Assembly: GCA_013360215.1 (NCBI GenBank)
Contig: JABWCP010000001.1
Coordinates: 153,144-217,143, forward strand
Direction: 5' to 3'
DNA from: a bacterium
Lineage (GTDB): Bacteria > CLD3 > SB21
DNA length: 64,000 bases
Below are positions 5,935 to 47,712 of the stretch, piece after piece. Each line of letters opens with the position of its first letter. The stretch's first letter is position 1. A program made the position numbers and the translations under genes. The notes beneath the pieces were generated by a model. The model was not told where the DNA came from and searched no databases. It saw only the letters and a list, made by a program, of their open reading frames with translations.

Positions 5935-7848
5935 ATGAAACTTGATTCCAAAATTCCCTCAGGCCCGCTCGCGGATAAATGGAGCCAACATAAGTTCAAT
6001 ATGAAGTTGGTCAATCCTGCGAATCGCCGTAAATATACTGTCATTGTCGTCGGTACGGGGCTTGCCGGTGCATCCGCCGCAGCAACCCTCGGCGAACTCG
6101 GCTACAATGTACATTCTTTTTGCATTCAGGATTCGCCCCGCCGAGCTCACTCGATCGCGGCGCAGGGCGGCATCAATGCGGCAAAAAATTATTCTAACGA
6201 CGGAGACAGTGTGCACCGTTTGTTTTATGACACGATCAAAGGCGGAGATTACCGCGCACGCGAAGCTAATGTCCATCGTTTAGCGGAGCTTTCCGTCAAT
6301 ATTATAGACCAGTGCGTCGCACAAGGCGTCCCGTTTGCACGTGAATACGGCGGCCAACTAGATAACCGCTCCTTTGGCGGTGCGCAGGTATCGCGTACAT
6401 TTTATGCCCGCGGCCAAACCGGACAACAACTTCTCCTTGGCGCCTACGGTTCGCTGATGCGTCAGGTCAATGAAGGCGCCGTCAAAATGTTCCCCCGTCG
6501 AGAAATGCTGGATCTGGTGGTGATTGACGGTCAGGCCCGCGGCATCGTCGTCCGCAATCTCGTGACCGGTGCGATCGAATCCTATGCCGGTGACGCCGTA
6601 CTGCTGTGTACCGGTGGCTACGGAAACGTTTTTTATCTTTCGACCAATGCTAAAAATTCCAACGTTACTGCTTCGTGGCGATGCTATAAAAAAGGTGCGT
6701 TTTTCGGCAATCCCTGCTACACGCAGATTCACCCGACCTGTATCCCCCAAAGCGGCGATTATCAGGCCAAACTGACGCTCATGAGCGAAAGCCTCCGTAA
6801 TGACGGGCGCGTATGGGTTCCTAAAACCAAAGGTGATAAACGTCCGCCGGAACAAATTCCTGAAAATGAACGCGACTATTATTTGGAACGTAAGTACCCG
6901 AGTTTCGGAAATCTTGTACCGCGTGATGTGGCATCCCGTAATGCCAAATCCGTATGTGATGAAGGACGCGGTGTCGGCGAAACAGGTCTCGCCGTATATC
7001 TTGATTTTTCAGATGCCATCAAACGCCTCGGTGAAGACGATATTCGTGAAAAATACGGCAACCTTTTTGATATGTACGAACGTATCACCGGCGACAATCC
7101 TTATAAGACACCGATGCGTATATATCCTGCCGTTCACTATACGATGGGCGGTCTTTGGGTGGATTATAATCTGATGTCCACCGTTCCGGGCTTGTTTGTA
7201 TTGGGTGAGGCCAATTTCTCGGATCACGGAGCCAATCGCCTTGGCGCCAGCGCCTTGATGCAAGGACTCGCCGACGGCTATTTCGTGATTCCTTATACCT
7301 TGGCTAACTATCTCGCCTCGTCAAGTTTTAATAAAATCACGACGGATCACCAGGCGTTCAAAACAGCCGCAACCGCAGTAACCGAACAAACGAAAAAACT
7401 ATTGGCCATCAAAGGCAAAAAAACCGTTTTGGAATTTCATCGCGAACTCGGCAAAATTATGTGGGACGAAGTCGGTATGGCTCGCAATAAAGCAGGATTG
7501 GAACGCGCTTTAAGTGAAATCCCAAAACTCCGTGAAGAATTTTGGAAAAATGTCAATGTTCCCGGCGAAGGTGAATTACTCAACAAAAACCTCGAATTTG
7601 CGGGACGTGTTGCTGATTTCTTGGAACTTGGCGAGCTCATGGCAATGGACGCACTGCAACGCGAGGAATCATGCGGAGGCCACTTCCGTGAAGAACATCA
7701 GACACCGGATGGTGAAGCCAAACGTAATGACGAACAGTTTGCTTACGTCGCGGCATGGGAATATGCCGGTGCCGACAAAGCGCCGATACTCAACAAAGAA
7801 GAACTGACGTTTGAAAACGTTCATCTTGCCCAACGAAGCTATAAATAA
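5935..7848 (+). CDS. sdhA: Succinate dehydrogenase flavoprotein subunit
   Basis: 637 residues. This is the catalytic subunit that oxidises succinate to fumarate with covalently bound FAD at the membrane. The dinucleotide-binding [13 protein letters not shown] motif is at residues 38-50. The FAD-attachment histidine is His72, in [11 protein letters not shown]. The substrate-domain motif near YTMGGLWVD and the FAD-binding [18 protein letters not shown] are intact. Length and the type-B pairing with a single cytochrome b subunit match succinate:menaquinone or quinone reductases of the FCB group. The start has a GAGG site at good distance. Fumarate reductase activity in the reverse direction cannot be excluded from sequence. 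Confidence 0.95.
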
Positions 7849-7896
7849 TCTGAACCGAAGCGCCGCAACGCGGCACTTAATAGATAAGAGGAAATT

Positions 7897-8652
7897 ATGG
7901 AACAAAAGAAAATGACCCTTCACCTGAAGATCTGGCGCCAGAAAAACATGCAAAGCGCCGGTAAAATGGTGGATTATACGTTGGACAATGTATCAACCGA
8001 TATGTCGTTTCTCGAAATGCTGGACGTTCTCAATGAACGCATCATCAAAAACGGTGAGGATCCCATCGAATACGATAATGATTGCCGGGAGGGTATTTGC
8101 GGTATGTGCAGCATGGTGATCAACGGTGTTGCCCACGGTCCTGAAAAAGGCACGGCCACCTGCCAGCTCCACATGCGCAAATTTAAGGACGGCGACCACA
8201 TCACGGTAGAACCTTGGCGCGCATCACCCTTTCCCGTTGTTAAAGATTTAGCCACGGATCGTTCGGCTTTTGATGCGATTATTGCCGCCGGTGGTTATAC
8301 CTCGTGCCGTGTTGGCTCCGCGGCCGAAGCCAATGCGTTACTGGTTCCCAAAGATATGGCCGATAAAGCGATGGATGCGGCCGCATGTATCGGTTGCGGC
8401 GCTTGCGTAGCGGCCTGCCCCAACGGCTCCGCTTCCCTTTTTGTATCCGCTAAAATCGCGCAGTTTACTTATCTGCCCCAAGGTCACGCCGAACGGAAGC
8501 AACGCGTACTCAATATGGTCAATAAAATGGATGAACTCGGTTTTGGCGACTGCTCCAATCACGGTGAATGCGAAGCTGTTTGCCCGAAAGAAATATCCAT
8601 CACTCATATAGCTATCATGCGCAAAGAATATCTTAAAGCCGCACTGAGCTAA
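7897..8652 (+). CDS. sdhB: Succinate dehydrogenase iron-sulfur subunit
   Basis: 251 residues, the electron-transfer subunit between SdhA and SdhC. The plant-type [2Fe-2S] cysteines lie at 63, 68, 71 and about 89 (CREGICGMC then TATC). The ferredoxin-like half has CIGCGACVAACPN and CSNHGECEAVCPKEI, giving ligands for the [4Fe-4S] and [3Fe-4S] clusters. An AGAGGA site precedes the ATG. It is the last gene of the operon and is followed immediately by a strong terminator. Confidence 0.95.
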   Translation: MEQKKMTLHLKIWRQKNMQSAGKMVDYTLDNVSTDMSFLEMLDVLNERIIKNGEDPIEYDNDCREGICGMCSMVINGVAHGPEKGTATCQLHMRKFKDGDHITVEPWRASPFPVVKDLATDRSAFDAIIAAGGYTSCRVGSAAEANALLVPKDMADKAMDAAACIGCGACVAACPNGSASLFVSAKIAQFTYLPQGHAERKQRVLNMVNKMDELGFGDCSNHGECEAVCPKEISITHIAIMRKEYLKAALS

Positions 8653-8675
8653 ATGCTAATAATTTTGTCCCTTTG

Positions 8676-8707
8676 AAAAAGGCGAGCGATGCATGCTCGC
8701 CTTTTTT
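8676..8707 (+). terminator. Terminator of sdhCAB
   Basis: GGCGAGC/GCTCGCC stem with a short loop, flanked by A-run and T-run (AAAAA...TTTTTT), 24 bases after the sdhB stop. Confidence 0.85.
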
Positions 8708-8808
8708 GTAATAGTATTTTTACAATTTTTTAATTTTTTTGTGAAACCTTAAACCATAAGCATCGTATTCATTATTGGTTACACCATTAATGAAAGGTGG
8801 TTTGTACT

Positions 8809-10551
8809 ATGGCAGGTGTTTATAAATTCTCAGACATGCGCAGTCCCCTGCTTTTTGTTTCCCTGCTTTTTTCCGCATTACCCGCGTTTGCTCAAACATC
8901 CGTAGCGGAACTGAAAAACTTTGAGATGGATAAAATCTATGTCAAAGGATTCAGCGTTTCCAAAAACTCATCCGTGCATATCAAAGGCATCGGTGTGATG
9001 TCGGATCACGAAAAATGGTATCGCTGGAATCCCATGATCGCCTACGGATGGATCATCAACGCGGATACCCGTGAATTGGTTTGGACCATGGATCCTTCCA
9101 ACGTCACCAGCAATTGGAACTCGCGCAACATAGTTTACGAGGGCAATCTGACGTTAGCGCCGGGTAATTATGAAGCCTATTACACCACGACGGGCCAAAA
9201 GGTTATTCGTATCTCCCGCTCACAAAGTTATTTCAATCAATTCTTCAAAAATCTGGCCAATGTTTTTGTTGACGATGCCGATTTGTACGAAAACGCGGAT
9301 GAGTGGTTATTACAAATCACATCGGATGAAAGACCATCCAATTTTGGTTCATACGACGGCGCTTTACCCAAAAGCGTTTTCCTGAACCTTTGCGGCGCCC
9401 GCGACAGCGATTACCGGGAAAAAGGTTTTACGCTGGAGCGCGACATCAAAGTCAAAGTGTATTGCAACGGCGAAGGCCAAGACCGGCGCATGTATGATTA
9501 TGGCTGGATCGCTGAGGATAAATCTTCAAAGACCGTATGGGAAATGCGTTTTGATAATACCGAACACGGCGGTGGCGCTGAAAAAAATCGTTTGTATCGC
9601 GGCATCATCACCTTGCCCGCCGGCAACTATGTTGCAACATTCCTAACGGATGATTCGCATTCGTTTATGGATTGGAATATGCAACCGCCGTACGATCCCT
9701 CTTCATGGGGTATGATGCTGAGTGTCGTTGACGAGCGCGATTTGGATTTTGTACGCGAATACAAAAAAGCCAAGAAACAGGAAATTCTTTCCATTACCGG
9801 TGTCGGCGATGAACAGTTCCGTTCTGAAGGCTTATCGCTCAGCCGTAAAACGGATCTACATGTTTTTGCCCTGGGAGAAGGCCGTGAAAACCGGATGTAC
9901 GATTATGGATGGATCGTCAATGCGCGCGACGGCAACACGATATGGGAAATGCGATTCCGCGATACCAAGTTCGCCGGTGGCGCCGACAAAAACCGTTTAT
10001 TTGATGGAGTCGTATCGTTACCTGCCGGTGAATATATGGTGTACTATCGTACCGACGGTTCGCATTCGGCTGAAGATTGGAACGATGATCCGCCATACAA
10101 CCAACAAAAATGGGGCATTACGTTAAGTCTTGTTAATAACAGCGATGCATCGTCCATCAGCAAACTTAATGAATTGCCGGAAGATAATAATGTTCTCGCA
10201 CAGATCGTTCGCGTCGGAGATGACGAATACGAAACCCGCGACTTTTCGCTGAATCGCGCCACCGAAGTGCGCATCCAATGCATCGGTGAAGGACGTTCCG
10301 GAAGAATGTACGATTACGGATGGATAAAAAACGCTGAAACCGGTCAGACTGTTTGGAAAATGCTGTATGAAGATACCGAGCCAGCTGGTGGTGCACGAAA
10401 AAACAGATCATTTAATGGTGTGGTCCTATTGGCTCCGGGAAATTACAAGGTAACTTTTATTTCGGATGATTCACATTCCTACGAAGATTGGAACGACGAT
10501 CCGCCGAATTTACCGGACCGCTGGGGTATTACGGTACGCGTCAATAAATAG
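8809..10551 (+). CDS. Secreted protein with four copies of an unrecognised ~100-residue domain
   Basis: 580 residues from the ATG at 8809, chosen because AAAGGTGG lies 8 bases upstream; the GTG at 8797 overlaps that site. A signal peptide is clear (SPLLFVSLLFSALPAFAQ). The mature part holds four tandem units. Units 2-4 share MYDYGWI, then T(V/I)WxM, GGAxKNR, LPAGxY, (D/G)SHSxxDWN, PP and WG(I/M). Unit 1 is more divergent and lacks the DSHS/DWN part. The Asp- and Asn-rich loops could bind calcium or sugar, but I do not recognise the family. Export to the periplasm or surface is likely. A terminator shared with the convergent acyl-CoA dehydrogenase follows. Function unknown. Confidence 0.8.
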   Translation: MAGVYKFSDMRSPLLFVSLLFSALPAFAQTSVAELKNFEMDKIYVKGFSVSKNSSVHIKGIGVMSDHEKWYRWNPMIAYGWIINADTRELVWTMDPSNVTSNWNSRNIVYEGNLTLAPGNYEAYYTTTGQKVIRISRSQSYFNQFFKNLANVFVDDADLYENADEWLLQITSDERPSNFGSYDGALPKSVFLNLCGARDSDYREKGFTLERDIKVKVYCNGEGQDRRMYDYGWIAEDKSSKTVWEMRFDNTEHGGGAEKNRLYRGIITLPAGNYVATFLTDDSHSFMDWNMQPPYDPSSWGMMLSVVDERDLDFVREYKKAKKQEILSITGVGDEQFRSEGLSLSRKTDLHVFALGEGRENRMYDYGWIVNARDGNTIWEMRFRDTKFAGGADKNRLFDGVVSLPAGEYMVYYRTDGSHSAEDWNDDPPYNQQKWGITLSLVNNSDASSISKLNELPEDNNVLAQIVRVGDDEYETRDFSLNRATEVRIQCIGEGRSGRMYDYGWIKNAETGQTVWKMLYEDTEPAGGARKNRSFNGVVLLAPGNYKVTFISDDSHSYEDWNDDPPNLPDRWGITVRVNK

Positions 10552-10571
10552 TTTTCCCCTACTGAAAAAAT

Positions 10572-10600
10572 AAAACCCTGAGTTGAACTCAGGGTTTTTT
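10572..10600. terminator. Bidirectional terminator
   Basis: AAAACCCTGAGTT/AACTCAGGGTTTT perfect hairpin with A-run on one side and T-run on the other. It lies between the convergent repeat-protein and acyl-CoA dehydrogenase genes, so it can serve both strands. Confidence 0.85.
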
Positions 10601-10622
10601 ATTGCCATTTTTATAAATTGCC

Positions 10623-12506
10623 TCAAGCGGCTACGGTCGGCGCAGATTGTGATTTAGTTTTTGATTCTTTGGATTCCGCGATACCCGCTTCCATCCAACC
10701 GTATTTATTATTCAAAATATCTTTGGCCATGTTGTATTTAGCGTTGTCATCATTATTCCACATGGCTTTGAATGACACTTCGACGCGACGTCGTGCGTTA
10801 CGGCAAAAAAGATCCGCAAGCTTCATCGCATCGGAATTACCTTCTTTGGCCATCTTGACGGCACGCGACATCGTAGCCGACATAGCAAAAAGTTCGGCAC
10901 CGATATCAACGGCGCGGAACAAGAATGCCTGTTTGTATGCCAGTTTAGCTTGATGACGCATCATTCCGTGGAAAATCTCCCGGGATAATTTGCGTGTTTT
11001 GCGTTCGACAAAACGCATGTGCGTCGCGAGCGGACCAAATTCACTAAAACGTGGCCACCGTCCCCAACCTAACCAGCGTGTCGGATACCAAATGCCATAA
11101 AACAGCGCAATCTTAGGCAGAGCTCCCAGTTTTTCACCGATAGAGGATTTGGGATCGATCATTTTCCAAGCAACTTCCAAATGTTTATCTACGGCTTCCC
11201 GCGCAATAAACAAGCGCATAATTTCACTCGATCCTTCAAAAATCAAATTAATTCGAAAATCACGCATCATACGTTCAACAGCAACCGGATCTTCACCGCG
11301 TGCGCGTAAAGAATCGGCCGTTTCATATCCGCGGCCGCCGCGTATCTGCAGCGTATCATCTACAATTTTCCAACCGGCTTCGGTATTATACATTTTACCG
11401 ACAGCGGCCTCTAGGCGAATGTCCAACTTCTTATCCGCCATGGCTGTAGATAACGAAGCAACCGATTCCATGGCAAACGTCATGGAAGCCATATCGGCAA
11501 TTTTTTGTGCGATGGCTTCATGTTTACCGATGGGTTGTCCCCACTGTACACGCTTGGAAGCCCATTCCCGCGCAACATGGAGGCATGCTTTCGCCGTTCC
11601 CGCCGCTCCCGCCGGCAGTGTCAATCGCCCGGTATTGAGCGTGATTAACGCCAACTTGAGACCTTTACCTCTACCCCAAATGATGTTTTCTTTGGGCACG
11701 CGCACGTCTTTGAATGACAGAACCGCATTTTCCAATGCTTTGAGACCCATGAAGTAACAGCGATGATCTACTTTTACGCCGGGCCATTTGGTCTCAACGA
11801 TAAACGCTGTGATCGCTCCGTCTTCAGGATGACGTGCCATCACAACGATGATATCAGCGATTGTACCGTTGGTACACCATAGTTTTTCACCATTGAGTAT
11901 GTACGACTGACCGTCTTCGCTTTCAACAGCGGTGGTGTGCAACTTGGCAGGATCCGAACCGGCTTCAGGTTCCGTCAGCGCAAACGCTGAAATTTCGCCT
12001 TTGGCTAATCGAGGCAGATACTTTTGTTTTTGTTCGTCGGTACCAAATAGCATCAGCGGTTGAGGTACGCCGATGGATTGATGTGCAGACAATAAGGCAA
12101 TCACATTGCCATCTTTCGTACAGATCAATTCCATTATTTTATTATATTCGGCTTGCGAAAATTCCAAACCACCGTACTCTTTTTTGATCTTCATGCCGAA
12201 CGCACCCATCGCCTTGAGCCGGTCGCGCACCGCCATGGGTATTTTTCCTTCACGATCGATCGCATCGGAATCCACTTCCTCTTCGATGAACTTCTTGAAC
12301 TCGGTATAAAACTGCTGAAATTCGGGACGGTTAATTCCCTTGGGTTCCGGATACGGATGAACTAAATCCAGACGAAGGTTACCTAAAAAAATTTCACGCA
12401 AAAAACTGGGATTTTCCCATTTGCTCTCGCGGGCGGATTCGGCTACTTCCCGAGCCTCTTCCTCGGTGACATGGCGCTTGCCGCTTTGTGCATCATGAGC
12501 TGACAT
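10623..12506 (-). CDS. Acyl-CoA dehydrogenase, long (VLCAD-like) form
   Basis: 627 residues from the ATG at 12506, which has an AGGAAAGG site; upstream in-frame codons lack one. It catalyses the first step of fatty-acid beta-oxidation, FAD-dependent acyl-CoA to enoyl-CoA. The N-terminal helical domain, the FAD/acyl-binding middle ([15 protein letters not shown], then LWCTNG) and the C-terminal helical domain are visible. The likely catalytic Glu sits in [11 protein letters not shown] roughly 170-residue C-terminal extension makes it longer than the usual 380-residue short-chain enzymes and similar to VLCAD/ACAD9-type proteins. It pairs functionally with the FadB/FadJ-like protein 3 kb away. 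Substrate length preference is inferred from architecture only. Confidence 0.9.
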
Positions 12507-12540
12507 TATCGGATTACCTTTCCTGTAATAACATATGTGA

Positions 12541-12570
12541 TAAATAAAAAGCTTGTTTGTATAAATCAAA
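12541..12570 (-). promoter_or_regulatory. Promoter of acyl-CoA dehydrogenase gene
   Basis: Minus-strand TTTGATT, 17-base spacer, TATTTATC. The start codon is about 35 bases downstream. Confidence 0.4.
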
Positions 12571-12628
12571 TATCCAAATTCATTGCACTAAATTCAAATT
12601 AAAAATACGCCGTCAGACGGATATTACG

Positions 12629-12658
12629 CTTGTATTTTTACATGTGGTCGGCTATATT
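12629..12658 (+). promoter_or_regulatory. Promoter of the GAF/PP2C phosphatase gene
   Basis: GCTTGTAT, 17-base spacer, TATATTAG. About 39 bases before the ATG at 12697. Confidence 0.5.
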
Positions 12659-12696
12659 AGCCCGCTTTTTAATTTTCGTTCAAATCTTACGATTTC

Positions 12697-14667
12697 ATGT
12701 TCAATTTTTCTCGTACGCTGCTTCGTGATGTCATCTTATATGCCGTCCTCGTTGCTATTTTTATCGCTATTTTTCTCATCGGAGAATACATCTCCGACAG
12801 TTACTTTCCGCGCACCAGCGACTATGTGATTTTTTTCTTCAAAGCTCTGGTTTTCATCCTCATTTACGAGCCTATCCGTAAACTCACGGAACTCTATATC
12901 CGGAAAATCGTTTTTAGCTATTACTACCGTCGCCAGGAAGATCTCCGTGATTTGGATGCCCGGTTGGTTTCCACGATGGGTTATCATGAAATGGCCGATA
13001 TTATCACCGAACGGATTAGTGGATTGCTGAATGTCAAATACGCCGCGATTTACCTTCGCATCCCCGAATTTTTTTCATTGGTGAGTTCGTATGGCCGCAG
13101 TGACCTCATTACCAAACGTATTAAAGCCGACATGGCCGTTTATGATGCCTTGTTATCCGGCAAACGCGTATTCACAATAAATGAACTGTTTGTTATGCAT
13201 CAGACCGTTTTAACCGATGATGCGTTAAAAGTTTTCAAACACGAAGGCTGCAAATACATCATACCGATGTTAAAAAAAGACGGCATTAGCGCCTTGCTCG
13301 TGTTGGGTGAAGAAACGCAGATTCGCTACGATCTGAGCGACGAAGATAAAAAAATCCTCTGGCAATCCATGCAACGCGTCGGCAATACGCTTGAGAGTAC
13401 GCGCCTCTATAGTCAACTTCAAAAATCGCTCGTAGAAAAAGAAATCGTTCTAGAGATTGCCAAAAAATTTAACGGTGAAATTCATACCGAAAAATTGCTC
13501 GATAATATTCTCGATGCCGTCAAATCCATCGTGCCGTACGATGCCGCCGGTATTTTCCTGGTGAATGAAGTGACGCAAGAAATCGAAAGTGCGGTCATGC
13601 GCGGTTACGATCCTGAAGTAATGGAACAAATTCGCATGAAAGTCGGAACCGGTCTGATCGGTCACGTTGCGATCATTGGCAAACCGGTCATCGTAAAAGA
13701 CGTCAATTTTGATGAACACTACGTCAGTGTTCGTGACAATACCCGATCCGAAATAACAATTCCCATCAAGGACAGCGACCGTACCATCGGTGTACTCAAT
13801 CTCGAAAGTGACATGCTCGGCGCTTACCATGAGGGATTTCTCGATATACTCAATGCAATCGCCGGCGAAGCCGGAATTGCCATACAAAATGCACAGCTCA
13901 ACGAGCAAGCCATTCGCAATGAAGAATTGCAAAAAGAACTTAAAATTGCAGGTAAGATCCAGCAGGCTATCCTCCCGCAGCAGTTACCGCGTATTCCCAA
14001 TCTGCAAATAACGGCCAAAAGCCTTCCCTGTTATGCTGTCGGCGGCGACTTCTATGATGTGCTAAAGCTTAATGATCATCAGGTCACGGTTTCCATCGGC
14101 GATGTATCCGGAAAAGGCGTACCGGGCGCCATCATGATGTCCGTATTGTACACCAGCTATCGTGGCATGGTGCACGAATACAAAACGAGCTGGGAAGTCG
14201 TTAATAGTTTGAACAACCTCCTTTGCACACATACGGCCGAAGGCCGCTATGCAACGTTCTTTCACTGCATAATTGATTTTGAACGCCTCATCATGTATTA
14301 TACGAATGCGGGCCATAATCCGCCGATGATCCGTAAAGAAAGCGGCGAATGGATCAAACTTCGGGAGGGCGGCATTGTATTGGGATTCATCCCCGATCAG
14401 GATTATCGTCAGATGACCCAGCCGCTTGATCCGGGCGACATCATCGTATTGTACACAGACGGGATTACGGAAGTATTCAGCGAAGCCGAAGAATTGTTCG
14501 GCGAAGAGCGTCTCAAAGAGGTTATAGAAAATAACCGTGAAACTTCTGCTAAAAATATTCAGGACGAAATCATCGCCGCGGTCAGCACATTTGCCCCGGA
14601 TCAGGAAATGCAACAGGACGATATTACACTCGTGATTATTAAAATCGAAAAAAGTACATTAGTATAA
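12697..14667 (+). CDS. Membrane-anchored GAF-domain PP2C (SpoIIE/RsbU-type) phosphatase
   Basis: 656 residues. Two hydrophobic segments at about 10-30 and 45-65 anchor the protein. They are followed by a divergent GAF-like region (about 95-230), a clear GAF domain (about 250-400, IVPYDAAGIFLVNE) and a short coiled linker. The PP2C/SpoIIE serine phosphatase domain is at about 420-650. The metal-binding aspartates are present in GGDFYDV, GDVSGKG, YTDGITE and DDITLVII. Such phosphatases dephosphorylate STAS-domain antagonists in partner-switching pathways in response to a signal bound by GAF. A second such phosphatase with its STAS and kinase partners is encoded at 26.1-29.3 kb, so cross-talk is possible. 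MoxR and FadJ-like genes follow on the same strand. Confidence 0.9.
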   Translation: MFNFSRTLLRDVILYAVLVAIFIAIFLIGEYISDSYFPRTSDYVIFFFKALVFILIYEPIRKLTELYIRKIVFSYYYRRQEDLRDLDARLVSTMGYHEMADIITERISGLLNVKYAAIYLRIPEFFSLVSSYGRSDLITKRIKADMAVYDALLSGKRVFTINELFVMHQTVLTDDALKVFKHEGCKYIIPMLKKDGISALLVLGEETQIRYDLSDEDKKILWQSMQRVGNTLESTRLYSQLQKSLVEKEIVLEIAKKFNGEIHTEKLLDNILDAVKSIVPYDAAGIFLVNEVTQEIESAVMRGYDPEVMEQIRMKVGTGLIGHVAIIGKPVIVKDVNFDEHYVSVRDNTRSEITIPIKDSDRTIGVLNLESDMLGAYHEGFLDILNAIAGEAGIAIQNAQLNEQAIRNEELQKELKIAGKIQQAILPQQLPRIPNLQITAKSLPCYAVGGDFYDVLKLNDHQVTVSIGDVSGKGVPGAIMMSVLYTSYRGMVHEYKTSWEVVNSLNNLLCTHTAEGRYATFFHCIIDFERLIMYYTNAGHNPPMIRKESGEWIKLREGGIVLGFIPDQDYRQMTQPLDPGDIIVLYTDGITEVFSEAEELFGEERLKEVIENNRETSAKNIQDEIIAAVSTFAPDQEMQQDDITLVIIKIEKSTLV

Positions 14668-15766: not shown

Positions 15767-17905
15767 ATGGATTCCTTATTTAGTCTTAAGCTGAAGATCG
15801 AAGGCGGTCTGGCATGGCTGACCTTTGACTATCCCGGTGAAAAATTTAATAAACTTTCCACCCCCGTCATGCAAGCGCTCAATCAGGCTTTGGATTATTT
15901 GGCAAGTCAGTCGCCATCTATACAGGGCTGTATCATTCACAGTGCCAAAGACGGTATTTTTATCGTCGGTGCGGATATTGATGAAATCAAAAATATCACC
16001 GACCCCAAAATCGCGGAAGCCGCCGCCGCGCAGGGACAAGCCATTTTCACGAAAATAGAAAAACTTCCCTTCCCGACCGTTTGCCTTATTCATGGCGCGT
16101 GTATGGGAGGTGGTACGGAGTTAGCACTGGCCTGCACCTACCGTATTGCAACCGATTCACCTAAAACAAAAATCGGCCTTCCGGAAGTCATGATCGGCAT
16201 AGTGCCGGGTTTTGGCGGAACCCAGCGTCTGCCTCGTCTTATAGGCCTCCAGCGTGCCCTCCCCATGATTTTGTCAGGTAAAGCTTACGACGGGAAAAAT
16301 GCATTGAGGAACGGTGTTGTAGACAAAGTCATACCGTCTGAATTTGCCGAACGCTATGCTGCCGCTTTTGTACAAGAAATTATTTCCGGAAAAACAACCG
16401 GGTATGTCAAACGACGTAAACCATCGGGGCTCATTAATTTTTTACTCGAATCCGTTGGCAAACCGCTGATCTACAGTCAGGCGCGTAAAAGTGTACTCAA
16501 AGAAAGCAAAGGCCAATACCCCGCTCCGTTAAAAGCATTAGACGCTGTACGCGAAGGGTATTCCCAATCGCTTGAAAACGGATTGAAAATTGAGGCGCGT
16601 TATTTAGGCGAAATGGTTGCTTCTCCGATTTCTAAAAATCTGATACGGATTTTTAGGCTCACTGAGCAAATTAAAAAAGATACAGGGGTAACCGACAAAT
16701 CCGTAAAATCGCCCGAGATACGTTATGCCGGTGTACTGGGCGCAGGCGTCATGGGTGGCGGAATCGCCTATCTTTTTTCTAATTATGATATCGAAGTACG
16801 ACTAAAAGACATCAACCATCAAGCAATCACATTGGGTCTCGACTCAGCTAAAAAAGTATATGAGCGGGCATTAAAACGACGTAAACTAACCAAACAAACG
16901 TTCAACAGGAAAATGTCCTATATCACCGGCGCATTGGATTATTCCGGTTTTCGCCGTTGCGATCTGGTTGTCGAAGCCATCGTCGAAAATATGGATGTGA
17001 AGAAAAAAGTTATCGGTGAACTTTCAAGTCACGTCAGCGATAGCTGTATCGTAGCGTCCAATACGTCTTCCTTATCCATAACCGAAATGGCGAAGGCTTA
17101 TAAAAATCCCGACAAATTTATCGGAATGCATTTTTTTAACCCGGTACACAAAATGCCGCTCGTCGAAATTATTCGCGGAGAAAAAACATCGGATGCGACA
17201 GTGGCCACGATCTATGCGTTGTCAAAAAAGCTCGGTAAACAGCCTATCGTCGTAAAGGACGGACCGGGGTTTCTTGTCAATCGTCTCTTGATGCCCTATC
17301 TCAATGAAGCCGGGCATCTGATGGAGCAAGGCGTTACCATCGAACTATTGGATAAAACGATGCTCGATTTCGGTATGCCGATGGGTCCGGCGCTACTTAT
17401 CGATGAAGTCGGAATTGACGTAGCGTACAAAGTCGGCCATATTTTTTACGATGCATTCGGCAAACGCGTACAACCGTCCCGCGTTGTCGAAAAACTTTAT
17501 GAGGCCAAACGTCTCGGAAAAAAAGGAAAATTAGGATTTTATAAACACGCTGACGACAAACCTCAGGTTGATCCTGCCGTCTACGCGCTTATAGGAGCAA
17601 ATCAAACTTCGACTATCCGTTCAGAAGAAATGGTCGAACGCATGACCTATACGATGATCAACGAAGCGGCCATGTGTTTGGCCGAAGGAATCGTCAGCCA
17701 ACCTAGCGATGTCGAAATCGGGATGATCTTCGGAACAGGTTTTGCTCCATTTCGCGGTGGCCTTTTGCGATACGCCGACAGCGAAGGTCTTGATAAAATA
17801 GTTGCACAGCTTGAAAAATATGCGCACACTTACGGCGTACGTTTTACCCCATGCGATTATTTGGTACAGTTGCAAAAATCAGGTAAAAAATTTTATAACG
17901 AATAA
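15767..17905 (+). CDS. Enoyl-CoA hydratase / 3-hydroxyacyl-CoA dehydrogenase fusion (FadB/FadJ-like)
   Basis: 712 residues, a bifunctional beta-oxidation enzyme. The N-terminal crotonase domain (1-190) has the oxyanion-hole and glutamate segments [14 protein letters not shown] and [21 protein letters not shown]. The dehydrogenase begins near residue 320 with the NAD-binding [13 protein letters not shown]. The catalytic His is in [16 protein letters not shown]. Two C-terminal helical domains complete the fold. It hydrates enoyl-CoA and oxidises 3-hydroxyacyl-CoA. The matching thiolase is not in the window, but the acyl-CoA dehydrogenase at 10.6 kb is. FadB versus FadJ cannot be decided from sequence alone. 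Confidence 0.93.
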
Positions 17906-17938: not shown

Positions 17939-18097
17939 ATGCTTGGCGATAAACTCATCAGCAAAGGTGTTATCAATCAATCCCAACTGGACGAATGCCT
18001 CAAAGAACAACAAAGCAGCGGTAAAAAACTCGGTGAAGTTATCATCGCCAAAGGCTATGCGACACAAGCTCAGATTGATGCCGCTTTAGCCGGATAG
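17939..18097 (+). CDS. 52-residue protein resembling an isolated MshEN/GspE N-terminal domain
   Basis: A small gene with an AAAGGA site 8 bases before the ATG, 33 bases after the FadB/FadJ-like gene. The product (begins MLGDKLISKGVINQSQLDE) has two helix-turn units of the pattern LGxxLIxKGxIxxxQLDxxL and LGEVIIAKGYATQAQIDAAL. This is the signature of the MshEN/T2SSE N-terminal fold, which in GspE, PilB and MshE ATPases can bind cyclic di-GMP. Here it stands alone with no ATPase attached. The conserved spacing and good ribosome site make it a real gene. Its function is unknown; a small regulatory or adaptor protein is possible. Confidence 0.75.
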   Translation: MLGDKLISKGVINQSQLDECLKEQQSSGKKLGEVIIAKGYATQAQIDAALAG

Positions 18098-18184: not shown

Positions 18185-19693
18185 ATGGATAAAGACCTCA
18201 TCGCTATTCAAGAAGCACGCGACATCGCCCGTGCAGCTAAAGCCGCACAAAAAGAGTTTGCAAAATTTACGCAACAAAAAGTAGATGCCCTTGTCAAAGC
18301 GATGGCCGATGCCGGGCTGGCCGCCGCAGATCGTTTGGCGCGTATGGCCGCCGACGAAACGCGTATGGGACGTTATGAGGATAAGATTGTAAAAAATCAA
18401 TTTGGCACACGCGATGTGTACGAATACATCAAGGACATGAAAACGGTCGGTGTCTTGCGGTACGATGATAAACTCAAATTTTATGAGATCGGTACTCCGA
18501 TGGGTGTCGTATGCGCTATTATCCCTACGACCAATCCCACATCTACCGTGATGTATAAAATTTTAATATCGCTTAAAGCCGGTAATGCCATCGCTATCGC
18601 TCCCCATCCGCGTGCAGCCAAGTGTACTTATGAAGCCATGCGCATCCTCCGCGACGTTGCCGAATCTATGGGCGCACCCAAAGGTCTCATCGGTTGCATC
18701 GAACATCCGACGCTTGAAGGAACACAAGCATTGATGAAGTGCCCGGAGACTTCGGTGATTTTGGCTACCGGCGGGCCCGGTATTGTACGCGAAGCGTACA
18801 GTTCGGGTAAACCGGCTCTGGGCGTAGGCTCTGGCAATGTCCCCGCTTTTATCGAAAAAACGGCGAATGTTAAAAAAGCTATCGCCGATATCGTCGCGGG
18901 TAAATGTTTCGATTACGGTTTATTATGTTCATCTGAAAACTCCATCGTTGCCGACGCCGCACTGCGTGATCAGGTTATTGCTGAATTGAAAGCCAATCGC
19001 GCATATGTTTGCAATAACGAAGAAAAAATTAAGCTTCAGCAACTGATGTTTCCTAAAGGAAAATTGAATACCCAGATTATTGGCCTTCCTGCACCTAAAA
19101 TTGCGCAAATGGCCGGTGTAGCGGCACCATCGGATGCGACGGTCCTGGTTGTTCCTTGCGAAAAAGTCGGCAAAGAAGAACCCCTGTCAGCCGAAAAACT
19201 TTCACCGGTATTATCGCTTTTTTGGGTAAACGGGTGGGAACAAGGCTGTGACCGCGCGCTGGAAATTCTCAATTTCGGCGGTATAGGACATACGATGTCC
19301 ATTCATTCGCAGGATAATGATGTGATCATGAAGTTCGGCCTCGAAAAACCGGCCTTCCGTATTTGCGTGAACACCGTTTCCACCTTAGGCGCTGTCGGTT
19401 ACACGACCGGCCTCGCACCGTCCATGACACTCGGACCCGGCACACTCGGAGGCTCTATCACGACGGATAATATCATGCCGTATCATTTGATGAACGTAAA
19501 GCGGCTTGCTTTCGAAATACGCCCGTTCAAATCTTCTTTAGTTCACGGCAATACCGAATCACCGGCAAAAGATACAAGCAAAAAAACCGCCGAAATATCG
19601 CCTGCCCCCGTTTCTTCTTCGCCTAAGAATGATTCTTTGTCGGAAAAAGAAATAGATAAAATCGTAGAGGAATTCATTCGCAGCAGAAAATAG
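18185..19693 (+). CDS. Acylating (CoA-dependent) aldehyde dehydrogenase with C-terminal targeting-like tail
   Basis: 502 residues. It belongs to the acetylating aldehyde dehydrogenase group (EutE, PduP, SucD, N-half of AdhE), which interconverts aldehydes and acyl-CoA with NAD. The Rossmann region, ATGGPGIVREAYSSGKPALGVGSGNVP and the catalytic cysteine segment KCFDYGLLCSSENS are intact. After the catalytic domain (to about residue 450) comes a Ser/Pro/Lys-rich linker. The protein then ends in an amphipathic helix (SLSEKEIDKIVEEFIRSRK). That layout matches encapsulation peptides that bring enzymes into bacterial microcompartments. No shell genes are nearby. The gene has its own promoter and terminator, so it is probably monocistronic. 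The substrate (acetaldehyde, propionaldehyde or succinate semialdehyde) is unknown. Confidence 0.88.
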   Translation: MDKDLIAIQEARDIARAAKAAQKEFAKFTQQKVDALVKAMADAGLAAADRLARMAADETRMGRYEDKIVKNQFGTRDVYEYIKDMKTVGVLRYDDKLKFYEIGTPMGVVCAIIPTTNPTSTVMYKILISLKAGNAIAIAPHPRAAKCTYEAMRILRDVAESMGAPKGLIGCIEHPTLEGTQALMKCPETSVILATGGPGIVREAYSSGKPALGVGSGNVPAFIEKTANVKKAIADIVAGKCFDYGLLCSSENSIVADAALRDQVIAELKANRAYVCNNEEKIKLQQLMFPKGKLNTQIIGLPAPKIAQMAGVAAPSDATVLVVPCEKVGKEEPLSAEKLSPVLSLFWVNGWEQGCDRALEILNFGGIGHTMSIHSQDNDVIMKFGLEKPAFRICVNTVSTLGAVGYTTGLAPSMTLGPGTLGGSITTDNIMPYHLMNVKRLAFEIRPFKSSLVHGNTESPAKDTSKKTAEISPAPVSSSPKNDSLSEKEIDKIVEEFIRSRK

Positions 19694-40838: not shown

Positions 40839-43800
40839 TTACGGCCGCTTGCGAACCGGTAAGTACACGATGAACTCCGAGCCTTTACCTACTTCGCTCC
40901 GCACTTCGATCTTGCCGTGATGCCGCTGAACAATCCCGTATGCTTCCGTTAGACCAAGCCCACGTCCCGACCCCACATCACGTGTTGTAAAAAACGGATC
41001 ATAAATTTTATCCATAACGGACGAAGACATGCCAATGCCATTATCGCGAATCGAAATGACAGCATATTCGTTTTGTTCATGCGCCTGTGTGGATGTGGAT
41101 AAATCAATTTGACCTTCTTTTAACCCTCTATCCTGTATAGCTTGCACCGCATTCGTGAGAATATTGACGAGGGCTTGATTTATTTCGGCCGTATTACAAT
41201 ATACGGCAGGAACTCCGGTATATTTTTTTTCAATCGTAACAAAATCATACTGCTTGATAAAAAGATCACAAATAATATCAAGATTGTCTTCTAAAGAAAT
41301 TAACTTCCAATCGGATTCATTGAGATTACTAAAACGTTTAAGGTTGTCAATGATAGCCTTAATACGCATGCCGCCTACCATCGAACCCTCAAGTGAAGGC
41401 ATCATCTCGGCATGTAATTTTTTAAACACACCGGAACCGTCATCCGGCCGATTTTTCAGCTGATCGCACGTTTCTTTGATCTGCTGTATATTACCTATTA
41501 CAAACGTAAGCGGGTTATTCACTTCGTGCGCAATACCGGCAACCATCTGCCCTAAGGAAGCCATTTTTTTGCTTTGGATGATCTGCGCTTGTTGTTCTCG
41601 AATCTGTTGATTTTTTATCGCCAACTGCGAGTTTTGTTCATCCAGCATTTTGTTTTTTTCAACCACTTCAAACGTACGCTCACGCACTTCGTTTTCCAGT
41701 TCACGCTTACGGAGTTCTATGGCGTATACACGCCGGCGGTATATAACATAGGTGACACTCAAAAGTAAAATAACTACCGTGATACGAAACCACCACGTCA
41801 TCCAAAATGGCGGATGGATCACTACCGCTATTTTAATTCCATCCGTATTCCATATATCATCATTATTTGATGCACGTACCCTAAACGTATAACTTCCCGG
41901 ATCAAGATTGGTATACGACGCGGTTCGTTTACTGCCAACAAAATTCCAATCTGTTTCAAAACCTTCCATAATATACGCGTACTGATTTTTCCCGGGAGCG
42001 CGGAAATTGAGGGCCGCAAATTCAAACGAAAAGACATAATCTTTGTACGACAAGTGAATTTCTTCTGTTTCTGATATGTGGATTGGAAATTCAAAATTAC
42101 GATTAAATTTCTGAAACCCCGTAACGGCTATTTGCGGAATAAAAGGATTATCGCGTACGCTGTCAGGATGAAAAACGTTGAAGCCGTTGATCCCTCCGAA
42201 ATACATCCATCCATCGCGCGCCTTGAGTCCAGCATTCATGCTAAATTCATTACTTTGCAAGCCATCATACACATCAAAATTACGAATGCGATTGTGCGCG
42301 GTAGGGCCACCGTTTTCAAAATTATTGATGTCAATACGAGACAACCCTTTGTTCGTACTAATCCACAAATGTCCATTACCGTCTTGCTGGATTGAAGCAA
42401 TGACATCGTTGGGTAAACCATGCTTCTCTGTGATTTGAAAAATTTTATCGTTGGAAGGATCAATACGATTTAATCCACCGCTGGTACCAACCCAAATCTT
42501 TCCTTGCGCGTCCTCGAGTATTGATACGATGGCATTATGACTCAGACTGTTCGGATTGGACGGATCATGCACAAAACGCGTGAACGCATACGTTTTCGGA
42601 TCCAGCCGCACAATACCTCCGCCGCTCGTTCCCACCCATATATATCCTCGGCTATCCTGCATCAATACCTGGACGCCATTGTCCGCTGGATTTCGACCGT
42701 CGTAACGTACGCGCCGAAATTCACCTTTTTTTTCGTCAAAAATTTGTAGCCCAATCGCGCGTGTACCAACCCATAATGTTCCTGAGGTATCTTCCAATAT
42801 GGCAAAAACGACATTATTGCTTTGCGCCGATGATATAGGATCTATTCGGTAATTTTTAAATTGCTCGGTCTTACGATCAAAACGACTCAGCCCTCCGCCA
42901 CGCGTACCTACCCATAGATTATGTTTGCGGTCTTCATAAATCACCGATACGCGATTATTACTGATACTCTTTGCATCGGCAGGATTATGTTTAAAGTGGC
43001 GGTAGGTCTGGTTTTTCGGATCATAACGATTTAGACCCGCGTCGTCGGTCCCGATCCAAATGATTCCCTCATGATCTTCGGCAAAACTAATCACAATATT
43101 TCCGCTGAGTCCTTGCGGTTGTGAAAGATCCAAGTGATAATGCTTAAATCGTTCTTTGTATGGGTCGTACATATTGACACCGCCACCATACGTGCCAAAC
43201 CATAAAATACCCATGCGATCTTCGCAAAAAGCATTTACAAAATTATTACTGATACTGGAGGGATCCGCGGGGTTATTACGATAATTATAAAACTTTTGGG
43301 TCGCCTTATCATGAATACTTACGCCCCCATTGGTGCAAACCCACAAACGGTCCTGACGGTCAAAATAAATTGATTTGATCCAATTATCCGCGATCGAATT
43401 GGGATCGGCTGAGTTATGGCGGAATATTTCAAATTCATCCGTTGCTACATTCCAGCGCGATAACCCGTTATTATTTGTACCAACCCACAAATAACCTTTA
43501 CGGTCTTCCGATAAAGCCCATATGCGTTCTTCGGGAACGGGCGAACGTTGCCCGGGCTTATACCGGTAACGGGTAAATTTTCCCGTAGCGCGATCCATTC
43601 TATTCAAGCCGCCACCATTGGTACCTATCCAAAAATTATTTTTTGAATCCTCGAAAACCGTCATGACATAATTATGACTCAGGCTTGTCGAGTCCTGCGG
43701 ATTGTTTTTATATGCAATAAAACGATCTGTTGCACGATCATACTTGCAAAGGCCGGCGTAACGCGTCCCAACCCATAGCACACCGGCGCGGTCTACATAC

Positions 43801-44213
43801 AATGCCCACACGCGGTTATCACTGATTGAGTGTGGATCGTCGGCTATATTACGATAGGATTTGAACTTTTGAGTCTTACGATCAAATCGGTTTAATCCTC
43901 CGCCGTTAGTACCGATCCACAGGTTTTCTTCTTTGTCCTCAATAATCGACCAAACGTAGTTTTCTGATATCGTCGTCGAATCGCGCGGATCATGGCGAAA
44001 AACGGTAAAACCGTATCCATCATAGCGATTGAGCCCGTCCATCGTACCGATCCACAAAAATCCTTTGTGGTCTTGATAAATCGAAAAAACTTTACTTTGC
44101 GACAGGCCTTCTCCGATGGATAGGCGTTCGAATTTAATACGATCCGATTGGGCGAGCACAATCGTGCCACTCCAACAAATCCAAACTATAAGTTGAACGA
44201 TATGTTTTTTCAT
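40839..44213 (-). CDS. Two-component-propeller histidine kinase, fourth of the array
   Basis: 1124 residues. A signal peptide (ending near residue 21) leads to a periplasmic sensor of 14 WxGT-type Reg_prop repeats, enough for two seven-bladed propellers. A Y_Y_Y beta domain (about 690-770, YAYIMEGFETDWNFVG) and one transmembrane helix (about 785-805) follow. A coiled coil leads to a HisKA domain with His896 in VAGIAHEVNNPL. The HATPase has NILTNAVQAI, RDNGIGM and GRGLGLTEAYGI. There is no receiver or AraC domain, unlike classic Bacteroidota hybrid sensors. Its start shares one base with the stop of the preceding kinase gene (TGATG), so translation is coupled. Signal and partner are unknown. 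Confidence 0.93.
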   Translation of the reverse strand: MKKHIVQLIVWICWSGTIVLAQSDRIKFERLSIGEGLSQSKVFSIYQDHKGFLWIGTMDGLNRYDGYGFTVFRHDPRDSTTISENYVWSIIEDKEENLWIGTNGGGLNRFDRKTQKFKSYRNIADDPHSISDNRVWALYVDRAGVLWVGTRYAGLCKYDRATDRFIAYKNNPQDSTSLSHNYVMTVFEDSKNNFWIGTNGGGLNRMDRATGKFTRYRYKPGQRSPVPEERIWALSEDRKGYLWVGTNNNGLSRWNVATDEFEIFRHNSADPNSIADNWIKSIYFDRQDRLWVCTNGGVSIHDKATQKFYNYRNNPADPSSISNNFVNAFCEDRMGILWFGTYGGGVNMYDPYKERFKHYHLDLSQPQGLSGNIVISFAEDHEGIIWIGTDDAGLNRYDPKNQTYRHFKHNPADAKSISNNRVSVIYEDRKHNLWVGTRGGGLSRFDRKTEQFKNYRIDPISSAQSNNVVFAILEDTSGTLWVGTRAIGLQIFDEKKGEFRRVRYDGRNPADNGVQVLMQDSRGYIWVGTSGGGIVRLDPKTYAFTRFVHDPSNPNSLSHNAIVSILEDAQGKIWVGTSGGLNRIDPSNDKIFQITEKHGLPNDVIASIQQDGNGHLWISTNKGLSRIDINNFENGGPTAHNRIRNFDVYDGLQSNEFSMNAGLKARDGWMYFGGINGFNVFHPDSVRDNPFIPQIAVTGFQKFNRNFEFPIHISETEEIHLSYKDYVFSFEFAALNFRAPGKNQYAYIMEGFETDWNFVGSKRTASYTNLDPGSYTFRVRASNNDDIWNTDGIKIAVVIHPPFWMTWWFRITVVILLLSVTYVIYRRRVYAIELRKRELENEVRERTFEVVEKNKMLDEQNSQLAIKNQQIREQQAQIIQSKKMASLGQMVAGIAHEVNNPLTFVIGNIQQIKETCDQLKNRPDDGSGVFKKLHAEMMPSLEGSMVGGMRIKAIIDNLKRFSNLNESDWKLISLEDNLDIICDLFIKQYDFVTIEKKYTGVPAVYCNTAEINQALVNILTNAVQAIQDRGLKEGQIDLSTSTQAHEQNEYAVISIRDNGIGMSSSVMDKIYDPFFTTRDVGSGRGLGLTEAYGIVQRHHGKIEVRSEVGKGSEFIVYLPVRKRP

Positions 44214-47200
44214 CAGGATACGCGCTTTATAACCGGGAGGCTGATAATAAATTCAGAGCCTTTACCTTCTTCACTTATCACTTCGATATCACCATTATGT
44301 TTCTTTACAATACCATAACTGATGGATAAACCCAGACCCATTCCTTTACCAATTTCTTTCGTTGTAAAAAACGGATCAAATATACTTTTAGCCATCGATG
44401 GATGCATACCGATACCATTATCTTTGATATGGATGCGAATATTATTTTCTGACAGAACTGTTTTAATAGTGATAATACCCTCGTTTGGAATAGCCTCGAT
44501 GGCATTGGTTAAAATATTAAGAAATACCTGGTTGAGCAAACCGGGATAACAATCAAGCATGGGAATTGTACCGAACTGCTTATGGACGGTTATGCGGTCG
44601 CTCAACATGGACTTTAAAACAGTCAGAGTGGACTCAATCCCCTCGTGCAAGTCGGCCGGGATAAATCCCATCGCATCGGTACGCGAAAATTTACGCAAAT
44701 CCTGAACGATATGTTTGATACGTTGACTGCCATTTTTACAAGAGTCGAGTATCTTCATTGTTTCCTGTCGGACATATTCGTATTCATGCCGTTCGCGAAT
44801 TTCCATCATACCCAATTTAATTTTCTCAGGATCGGCCGATTCGATAAGTCGCTCGTACTCCGTGATGATGTGGTCCCAGCGCAGTACGTTTTCTTCGAGC
44901 AGGTGGAGATTGCCATCTACAACCGTCAGCGGATTATTGATCTCATGGGCGATACCGGCCACCATTTGACCGAGCGATGCCATTTTTTCGGCATGCACCA
45001 GTTGGGATTGTGTTTCGTTGAGTTCCTGCAACGTTTTTTCGAGTTGGGAATTTATGGTTTTCAAATCGTCGCGTTGTGCTTTGATTTCACGCGTCCGGTT
45101 GGACACTTCGACTTCAAGTTTATTTTTTTGAAGTTCGATAACACGCACACGGTAGCGTATAAATGCCCACAGCAGTCCCATAAGCGTACTAAAACTCAAT
45201 GCGATAAACCACCACGTTTTCCAAAAAGGCGGAATAATCCGTATCGGAATCGAAATACCCTGCTCATTCCAAACGCCGTCATTATTGGATCCGCGTACAT
45301 AAAAGACATAATTGCCTGCATCCAGGTTCGTATAATTCACATAGCGGCGTGTACCCGCAAGGATCCAGTTTTTATCGAATCCTTCTAATTTGTATGCATA
45401 CTGATTTTTGGCCGGCTCTGTAAAATCAAGCGAAGCAAATTCAAATGAGAAGTCTTCATTGTAATCAAGGGTAATCGGATCATGGCGGTACACCGATTCA
45501 ATATAGGCGTCAACAAATGCTTTATCGGATTTGTGCATTGTTTTGAATGCCGTTAATACGATTTGCGGAATATGCGGATTGTCCATCGCAAGTTTAGGGT
45601 AAAAACGATTAAAGCCGTTGGTCCCGCCGAAAAATATTTCTCCGCTGCGGCTTTTGTAGTAACTGCCATATTTGAATTCATTATTTTGAAGCCCGTCACT
45701 TTCATCAAAATTACGAAACATCAGTTTTTCCGATTTGTCATTCTCATCTTGGATCAGACGTGCACGGGACAAACCTTGGACCGTGCTGATCCAAAGATTG
45801 CCATGTTCGTCCGGCAATATCGCATATACGTAGTTATCCGGAAGCCCGTCTTTTTCGTAATAGTTATAAAACTTCAAGCTACCGTCCGTAGTGCGTACGA
45901 TACGATTGAGTCCTGAGCTGGCGCCGATCCAAATATTTTTGTCCGAATCTTCGGAAATCGCAAAAATAACATCACTACCCAATGAAGAATTACTTTCCCC
46001 TCGCCCGGCGATACGTTTAAAGGACGCATAACCCGTGCGATCCTGAACGGCATCCAACCGATTGAGCCCTCCGCCAAATGTACCAACCCAAATCTTATCT
46101 TCCGAATCCATCAGTATAGAGCTGACTTCATTATGGCTCAAACTCTGCGGGCGATGAGGCTCATTGCGATAATGAACAAATATTTCTTTTCCGTTTTCTA
46201 CGATCAATTTATCCAGGCCGTTGCCGAAAGTTCCTATCCACAGTTGATTGTATTTATCGCTCAACAGTACGGATATGTCGTTAGCTGCGATACTCAGCGA
46301 ATCCTGCGGACGATGTTGGTACACGGTAAACCGATTTGTTCGGCGATCAAATTTATTTAATCCGCCGCCTTCGGTACCAAGCCATATCATTCCGTTTTTA
46401 TCTTCCGCAATGGTTCGCACTTCGTTGCTACTCAGACTGCCCGGCCCGGCGCGGTATGCCGTAAAACGATCGGTACCGGCATCATATCGATTGAGTCCGT
46501 CGTGCGTACCGATCCACAAAATCCCATCGCTATCCTCCCAAAACGAACGGACAATATTATTGATCAAGCTGTTGGGATTATCCGGTTTGTGACGTATGTG
46601 ATTAAATTTGACCGGCTTCAAATCAAGTTTGTTCAAACCGCCGCCGCCGTATGTACCGATCCACAGATTGCCCGACCGGTCTTCGCATAACGCTCGGATT
46701 TCATTATCGGACAACGACGACGCATCGTTGGGATTGTGTCGAAAAAATATTTTGGTATTACTGTTAAAGTCTATCCGATCCAATCCCAAACGAGTCCCGA
46801 CCCATACGATATTTTGTCGATCGACCATCACAGTTACAATATCGGCATGTGTTGTGGACGCATCATTACCGGAATGAACAGGTATTTTTTCAAAAACAGG
46901 ATTCAGAATGTTCTTGCGGTCTAATTTGCAAAGACCACCGTCTTCCGTACCGATCCAAATATTATTATTAGCGTCTTTAAACAAAGCTGTAATATTATTG
47001 GATGGGAGTCCCGAACCGCCCTGCTTATCGGCAAAGTAACGTATTATTTCACCGTTGGTTATTTTATTAAGTCCCTGCTGCGTACCGATCCAGATATCGC
47101 CATTCTCATCATCCGTGATCGCTGTAATCCACGAATGTGAAATGGAATTGGCTACTTGACTGCTGCTAAAATACCGCACAAACCGCATTGCAGTCTCGGT

Positions 47201-47707: not shown

Positions 47708-47712
47708 ATAGG

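Follow-up and report, generated by a model that had tools for sequence, protein, structure and literature searches.

The stretch of DNA analysed here, which we call the window, is 64,000 nucleotides long and covers C1:153144-217143, that is, positions 153,144 to 217,143 of contig JABWCP010000001.1 in a bacterial assembly (GCA_013360215.1; GTDB lineage Bacteria; CLD3; SB21). The source genome (G000) amounts to 3.72 Mb in 56 contigs and is rated 100% complete; distances between genes are valid within contigs only. On the forward strand, at 18185-19693, the window carries an open reading frame (ORF) of 502 aa, from an ATG start to a TAG stop, that encodes an aldehyde dehydrogenase (ALDH). Its catalytic part (18185..19522, residues 1-446) is a CoA-acylating acetaldehyde dehydrogenase of the EutE or bacterial microcompartment (BMC) kind. 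The best NCBIfam model is TIGR02518 (EutH_ACDH), at 578 bits slightly under its cut-off of 620.1, and the best solved relative is PDB 5j78, an acetaldehyde dehydrogenase (acetylating) aligned over residues 2-461 (E 1.3e-145). Among the best 60 of 91 matches, alignments with solved CoA-acylating ALDHs stop at or before residue 461. We found no second ALDH of this subfamily in the genome, other matches reaching only 22-27% identity. On direct reading, the catalytic part is followed by a low-complexity linker rich in Ser, Pro, Lys and Thr (19523..19633, residues 447-483, 37 aa) and by a 19-residue C-terminal tail resembling an encapsulation peptide, SLSEKEIDKIVEEFIRSRK (19634..19690, residues 484-502). 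An earlier reading made from the letters alone (the sequence-only reading) had described a Ser/Pro/Lys linker after the catalytic domain and had set apart these same last 19 residues, and both descriptions hold. Encapsulation peptides are typically laid out as a helix of 15-20 residues attached by a flexible linker to a terminus of the cargo, a layout that the ALDH matches with a predicted helix, placed at 487-500 with low confidence by AlphaFold2 run on a shallow 10-sequence alignment.

The tail is conserved among relatives. Our phylum sample comprised nine genomes including the source genome, seven from one family (f1) and two from another (f2), and in each of the nine the ALDH has a C-terminal extension after its core. 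In the seven f1 genomes the tails differ little from one another; those of the two f2 genomes align at the same place and are more divergent. Among six of the seven f1 sequences (that of G008 was excluded), 200/270 residue pairs (74%) are identical in the last 18 residues, 307/694 (44%) in the linker and 5523/6690 (83%) in the core; with one sequence per genus, the figures are 69%, 39% and 80%. A short tail that is kept behind a linker that drifts is the pattern that a docking peptide should produce. The ALDHs nearest to this one outside the phylum (L012, L013 and L014; 49-55% identity) are encoded directly beside BMC-H genes and have C-terminal tails as well. Two short motifs kept in the linkers of relatives are missing from the window's own linker: FDSRP in f1 relatives, with FDHEP or FDYEP in f2 (L105-L108, L110, L111 and L112), and (Y/F)G(S/T/K).

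The sequence-only reading had noted that no shell protein is encoded in the 64 kb around the ALDH, leaving either shell genes elsewhere or a different docking partner, and had proposed a search of the genome for BMC domains. Genome-wide profile searches with PF00936 and PF03319 returned nothing within the window and bore out the first of these alternatives, with four PF00936 matches in three genes and four PF03319 genes, spread over five places outside the window. These are a tandem pair of BMC-H genes on C14, a 183-aa BMC-T gene with tandem domains on C8 that adjoins a PduS-like gene and has RpiB nearby, a pair of BMC-P genes (EutN/CcmL family) on C5, and single BMC-P genes on C1 (C1:298034) and C3. 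Shell genes in the same genome, together with the linker and the conserved tail, support the suggestion that the tail is a candidate encapsulation peptide. The sequence-only reading had named two refuting outcomes, a genome lacking BMC genes and a tail not shared by close relatives, and neither came about.

All nine phylum genomes encode shell proteins, with BMC-H and BMC-P found in every one (a single BMC-P in G005, which is 85% complete) and BMC-T found only in G000, G005, G006 and G008. Within f1 the scatter of the shell genes is stable, each gene keeping its neighbours. BMC-P3 is flanked by the same two genes (CinA-like and MurA-like by eye) in 6/6 other f1 genomes and BMC-P4 by its own two (DUF92-like and BamA-like by eye) in 5/6, while in 5/6 the BMC-P pair has kept its sigma-factor-like neighbour, its GGDEF-like neighbour or both; BMC-H1 is present in 6/6, its histidine-kinase-like neighbour being seen in five. 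The f2 shell loci match the shell genes of the source genome and none of its flanking genes. Identity of BMC-H1 to the source genome is 97-98% in f1, between genera, and 88-95% in f2, between families, against only 55-62% for the histidine-kinase-like neighbour. Two peculiarities of these loci may be recorded here. The BMC-P pair of C5 is separated by a small cupin gene (L067:10158-10523), whose sole NCBIfam match is a weak one to 3-hydroxyanthranilate 3,4-dioxygenase (20 bits; cut-off 220). In G008 the second BMC-H (G008:C599:39669-39890, L099) shares a 610-residue open frame with the downstream histidine-kinase-like gene, possibly a fusion of shell protein and kinase or else a frame error in a metagenome-assembled genome (MAG).

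A second enzyme of the source genome carries an extension of comparable layout. PF01791 has two matches there. That at C4:153741 was rejected as DeoC, since by eye it is a class I fructose-bisphosphate-type aldolase. The other, at C1:25094-25987, is a deoxyribose-phosphate aldolase (DeoC) whose Pfam DeoC domain spans residues 81-280, with 81 residues before the core; this extension opens with a helix-like segment, MSTEKIIADQIDRILADIKG, and continues as a Cys-rich linker. The gene is 272 kb from the sole shell gene on its contig (C1:298034). DeoC is present in 8/9 phylum genomes, and in 8/8 of these it is extended at the N-terminus by a stretch whose first residues look helix-like; the extensions of f2 are shorter and not Cys-rich (MPDLVSQVISEIFSGE..., MDLISKVIEDIFKEE...). 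In the predicted structure a helix covers residues 3-20 (pLDDT about 60), residues 20-68 are of low confidence and the core is mostly above 90. Alignments with 18 solved DeoC-type sequences all begin at or after residue 72 of this DeoC, and some solved DeoCs have N-terminal residues of their own, as in 3r12, which is matched from its residue 41. Cys-rich linkers occupy L073:9694-9936 (DeoC residues 1-81) and the same stretches of L075, L076, L077 and L079, the f1 linkers having 6-8 Cys before the core and a constant ECGACRIS motif; Cys clusters also occur in the N-terminal stretches of several shell-locus DeoCs from other phyla. The GAxRIS motif of the linker is similar to a C-terminal motif of the aldolase itself, GAxRIGAS, and this too is matched by a profile of the extension. 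Genes that could supply DeoC are present too. A CNT nucleoside transporter with three Pfam domains is encoded 2.2 kb from DeoC in the source genome, with a homologue at 1.9 kb in G006, and a DeoA relative occurs in 8/9 phylum genomes, of which G006 and G008 yielded it in pieces only.

We compared the DeoC extension with DeoCs encoded at shell loci, using a profile built from the extensions of five f1 DeoCs with the aldolase core left off. The profile was searched against the compared loci (6545 ORFs, 41 of them DeoC-like), with database size set to 4000 and matches listed up to E 10, and it matched DeoC ORFs exclusively. By best domain, E-values were 2.5e-7 for L055, 4.1e-4 for L060, 0.023 for L153 (Gemmatimonadetes), 0.052 for L058 (= L162) and 0.13 for L014 (= L150). 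Whole-sequence values are lower (L055 1.8e-9, L060 6.1e-6, L153 1.7e-4, L058 4.6e-5, L014 0.014), partly because the motif in the aldolase core also matches the profile. Similarity at this level makes kinship of the extension with those of L055 and L060 a well-supported proposal, and is suggestive of the same for L153, L058 and L014.

DeoC, ALDH and shell genes stand together in nine of the compared loci (L014, L051, L054, L055, L057, L058, L059, L060 and L063), and the DeoCs of these compact loci have an extension, N-terminal or, in fusions, between domains, with a stretch that looks helix-like by eye. The most telling is L014, from the Bacillota MAG THP_Bin_8, in which homologues of 9/11 of the pieces scattered in the source genome lie within 7546-14507 (about 7 kb) in the order BMC-P1, RpiB, BMC-P2, BMC-P3, DeoC, ALDH, BMC-H1, PduS-like and BMC-T. 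Each L014 gene has its best match in a different scattered gene, at 36-81% identity, and three of the four BMC-P genes of the source genome pair with the three of L014 (a BMC-P triplet is a mark of the FRAG type, judged here apart from the clades of the published tree). Two Gemmatimonadetes genomes look intermediate between the compact and the scattered layouts. G009 groups two BMC-P genes and DeoC with adenosine deaminase and a CNT transporter (L219), and has two BMC-H genes and ALDH on a separate contig. One short contig of G010 (L153/L217) carries RpiB, two BMC-P genes, DeoC and pyrimidine nucleoside phosphorylase, while a second carries BMC-H1, BMC-H2 and ALDH and a third carries BMC-T; the contigs of G010 are short (4-8 kb), so this scatter may be an artefact of assembly.

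Outside the phylum we collected 52 ALDH-bearing loci and searched the genomes of 40, finding a DeoC match in 35 and BMC genes in 21. Extension lengths were taken from 30 of the 35 (G024, G034, G041, G042 and G044 were left out), an extension counting as long when it had at least 50 residues from the first in-frame ATG. Long extensions occur in 5/16 genomes with BMC genes (G010, G011, G043, G046 and G048) and in 0/14 without (one-sided p 0.031), the lengths in G046 and G048 being inflated because the frame is that of a longer fusion. Going by their record titles, the genomes that have BMC genes and no long DeoC extension are mostly Firmicutes.

The genes, their tails, the conservation of these tails and the kinship of the DeoC extension with those of some shell-locus DeoCs are computed results. 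From them we infer encapsulation and joint assembly: the ALDH tail is very probably an address label into a protein-shelled organelle whose genes are scattered over the chromosome, and the extended DeoC encoded elsewhere suggests that this organelle consumes the sugar of DNA, deoxyribose. We put the probability of the whole reading, an SPU-type (sugar phosphate utilisation) metabolosome with a dispersed operon in which the ALDH tail docks to the shell and the tailed DeoC is co-cargo, at roughly 0.77. In such a metabolosome the tail would act as a C-terminal encapsulation peptide that docks the ALDH to the inner face of the shell, and DeoC (C1:25094-25987) would be co-encapsulated through an N-terminal one. 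Nucleosides and deoxynucleosides would enter the cell through the CNT-type transporter, and the nucleoside phosphorylase DeoA would split them to yield deoxyribose-1-phosphate, which would then be converted to deoxyribose-5-phosphate. Inside the shell, DeoC would turn the latter into glyceraldehyde-3-phosphate and acetaldehyde, and flux would continue towards acetyl-CoA as the window's ALDH combined acetaldehyde with CoA and NAD+. The PduS-like protein may aid the recycling of NAD.

With this reading we propose a function for a FRAG-like compartment, FRAG-like meaning by gene layout and outside the published models. According to the survey by Sutter et al. 2021 (PMC8217296), FRAG shell genes lie at up to six genomic places, most of them remote from known enzymes, in Ignavibacteriae and related phyla, Gemmatimonadetes, Planctomycetes and candidate phyla; FRAG1-7 are listed there among the types with an ALDH and no obvious signature enzyme, and the substrate is posed as an explicit question because there is no defined locus. 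The source genome resembles FRAG so described in its scattered shell genes at five places (C14, C8, C5, C1 and C3) without a defined locus, its several BMC-P genes and its ALDH. It differs in having a tailed DeoC, proposed here as signature enzyme, far from any shell gene on its contig; the survey considered only a neighbourhood of 12 ORFs around each shell gene and would therefore miss so distant a DeoC. SPU loci, according to Axen et al. 2014 (PMC4207490) and PMC8217296, hold DeoC, RpiB and ALDH together with shell genes, and PduL is given for all except Marinimicrobia (PMC4207490). On this description the likeness is in enzymes, the source genome having a DeoC-type PF01791 enzyme, a PF02502-type RpiB and an ALDH. 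The compact loci compared here share the N-terminally extended DeoC, L014 adding a PduS-like gene, BMC-H, BMC-T and three BMC-P genes. Unlike SPU as described, a single locus, the source genome spreads these parts over seven addresses, keeps its aldolase outside the shell loci and has no match to PduL (PF06130).

Other described systems supply further parallels. In the HO (Haliangium ochraceum) type, some genomes keep a PF01791 aldolase elsewhere, in some cases with an N-terminal extension like an encapsulation peptide (PMC8217296), which recalls the aldolase described here, likewise encoded away from shell genes; HO, however, has a main locus with satellites, whereas here BMC-H and BMC-P are never co-located and the ALDH is on its own. 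An N-terminally extended DeoC tied to BMC genes is also described from Atribacteria RT761 (PMC7736352), in that case within the shell cluster and not distant from it as in the source genome. Every element of the proposal thus has precedent; it is of DeoC as cargo of a scattered FRAG-like compartment that we found no description in the openly accessible literature searched. The function of a microcompartment is usually read from its operon; an extension-marked DeoC gives this FRAG-like type a concrete, testable candidate substrate, and a genome-wide look for enzymes with encapsulation-type extensions may be a general route to the contents of scattered compartments. The series from compact L014 through the two or three clusters of Gemmatimonadetes to the full scatter of this phylum would then record genes drifting apart while the organelle was kept. 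That FRAG as a class comprises dispersed SPU-type deoxyribose metabolosomes, with shell, electron carrier and both tailed enzymes encoded at seven or more loci beside housekeeping genes and brought together by tails alone, is a broader and tentative claim, which we consider slightly less probable than its contrary; if true, it would supply the missing FRAG signature enzyme and mean that inheritance of a bacterial organelle does not depend on its genes being clustered.

Several observations weigh against the assignment. The sequence-only reading had called the tail an amphipathic helix, and of this the helix is a prediction only, since the ALDH model is poor in the region: pLDDT is below 50 at 381-487, including part of the catalytic domain, and at 494-502, which takes in 13/19 tail residues. 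The hydrophobic moment of the tail (0.426) is no better than that of its own shuffles (p = 0.18), and the ten other ALDH tails put through the same shuffle test gave p 0.09-0.95, the two f2 tails faring poorly (p 0.95 and 0.87). The moment was dropped as proof of an encapsulation peptide for lack of significance, and the case for the tail rests on conservation and context. As to DeoC, the gene is only 25 kb from a contig end; G003 (91% complete) has the ALDH and shell genes without a DeoC match; per domain the extension profile is strong for L055 and L060 only; and an ordinary DeoC (L160) was also matched weakly through the core motif (0.039). Long extensions were seen in only 5/16 of the BMC-bearing genomes outside the phylum, two of the five being fusions, and the DeoC of G009 adjoins two BMC-P genes yet has no peptide. 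L014 lacks separate counterparts of BMC-H2 and BMC-P4, and the PduL search of the source genome gave 0 matches while its positive controls were detected. Finally, the BMC-T and PduS-like genes sit in a gene run of the tryptophan/kynurenine type.

That run (L066:6932-15823; L210:5016-16439) has, in order, RpiB (an NCBIfam match), 2.5 kb before BMC-T, a gene like tryptophan 2,3-dioxygenase (TDO; 187 bits, cut-off 391), the PduS-like gene (so named on our reading of its Complex1_51K, SLBB, Fer4_17 and RnfC_N domains), BMC-T and then genes resembling those of tryptophan/kynurenine catabolism; also in the run are a Rid-like domain, at 94 bits against a cut-off of 106, and a gene like that of 2-hydroxymuconic-semialdehyde dehydrogenase, at 569 bits against 693. 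The inclusion of BMC-T and the PduS-like gene is kept between genera. G006 has the run too, in its case including kynureninase and an amidohydrolase, and parts of it are seen in G008 and G005, where the contigs are short. It is the ground for what we rate as the main rival, namely that the ALDH is cargo of a compartment for tryptophan breakdown (kynurenine/2-aminomuconate), somewhat like the actinobacterial ARO type (whose mark is 2-aminophenol meta-cleavage enzymes encoded alongside a shell), with acetaldehyde released by ring cleavage and DeoC secondary or a second source of it; the cupin between the BMC-P genes of C5, with its weak 3-hydroxyanthranilate dioxygenase match, would fit. We regard this as unlikely. 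By eye the L066 enzymes have no such tail, whereas DeoC and ALDH have one, and BMC-T was not found in G001, G002, G003, G004 and G007, all of which have the tailed ALDH. A search of the nine genomes for the acetaldehyde-releasing aldolase family PF07836, a source of the aminomuconate type, gave no match and was dropped as evidence, its positive controls being silent as well. The run leaves two options: acetaldehyde may reach one compartment from two sources, or BMC-T may lie in an unrelated operon.

Less probable again is a tail helix that serves another partner, a membrane or an enzyme assembly such as the hydratase/dehydrogenase-like protein encoded at 15767-17905, with the shell unrelated. 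On its contig the ALDH gene is indeed separated by 125 kb from the closest shell gene, the order of its hydratase/dehydrogenase-like and membrane-protein-like neighbours is kept in G006, and the moment test gives no proof of amphipathicity; the tailed ALDHs beside BMC-H genes outside the phylum and the lack of a further ALDH of the subfamily in the genome speak for the shell as partner. We consider it very improbable that shell and tails are the decaying remains of an SPU locus. Dispersal of the operon and the missing PduL match would fit decay, against which stand the conservation of BMC-H1, far above that of its kinase-like neighbour both between genera and between families, and the freedom of the ALDH and DeoC matches from internal stops.

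Other ORFs of the window are noted for completeness, all read by eye. A small ORF just before the ALDH (17939-18097) looks like an isolated MshEN/GspE N-terminal domain. At 40839-54272, four ORFs in a row, all very large (1057-1164 aa), resemble propeller-type sensor kinases. They are followed at 54350-55822 by a 490-aa ORF like the large subunit of carbamoyl-phosphate synthase, about half the usual length and possibly part of a split carB.
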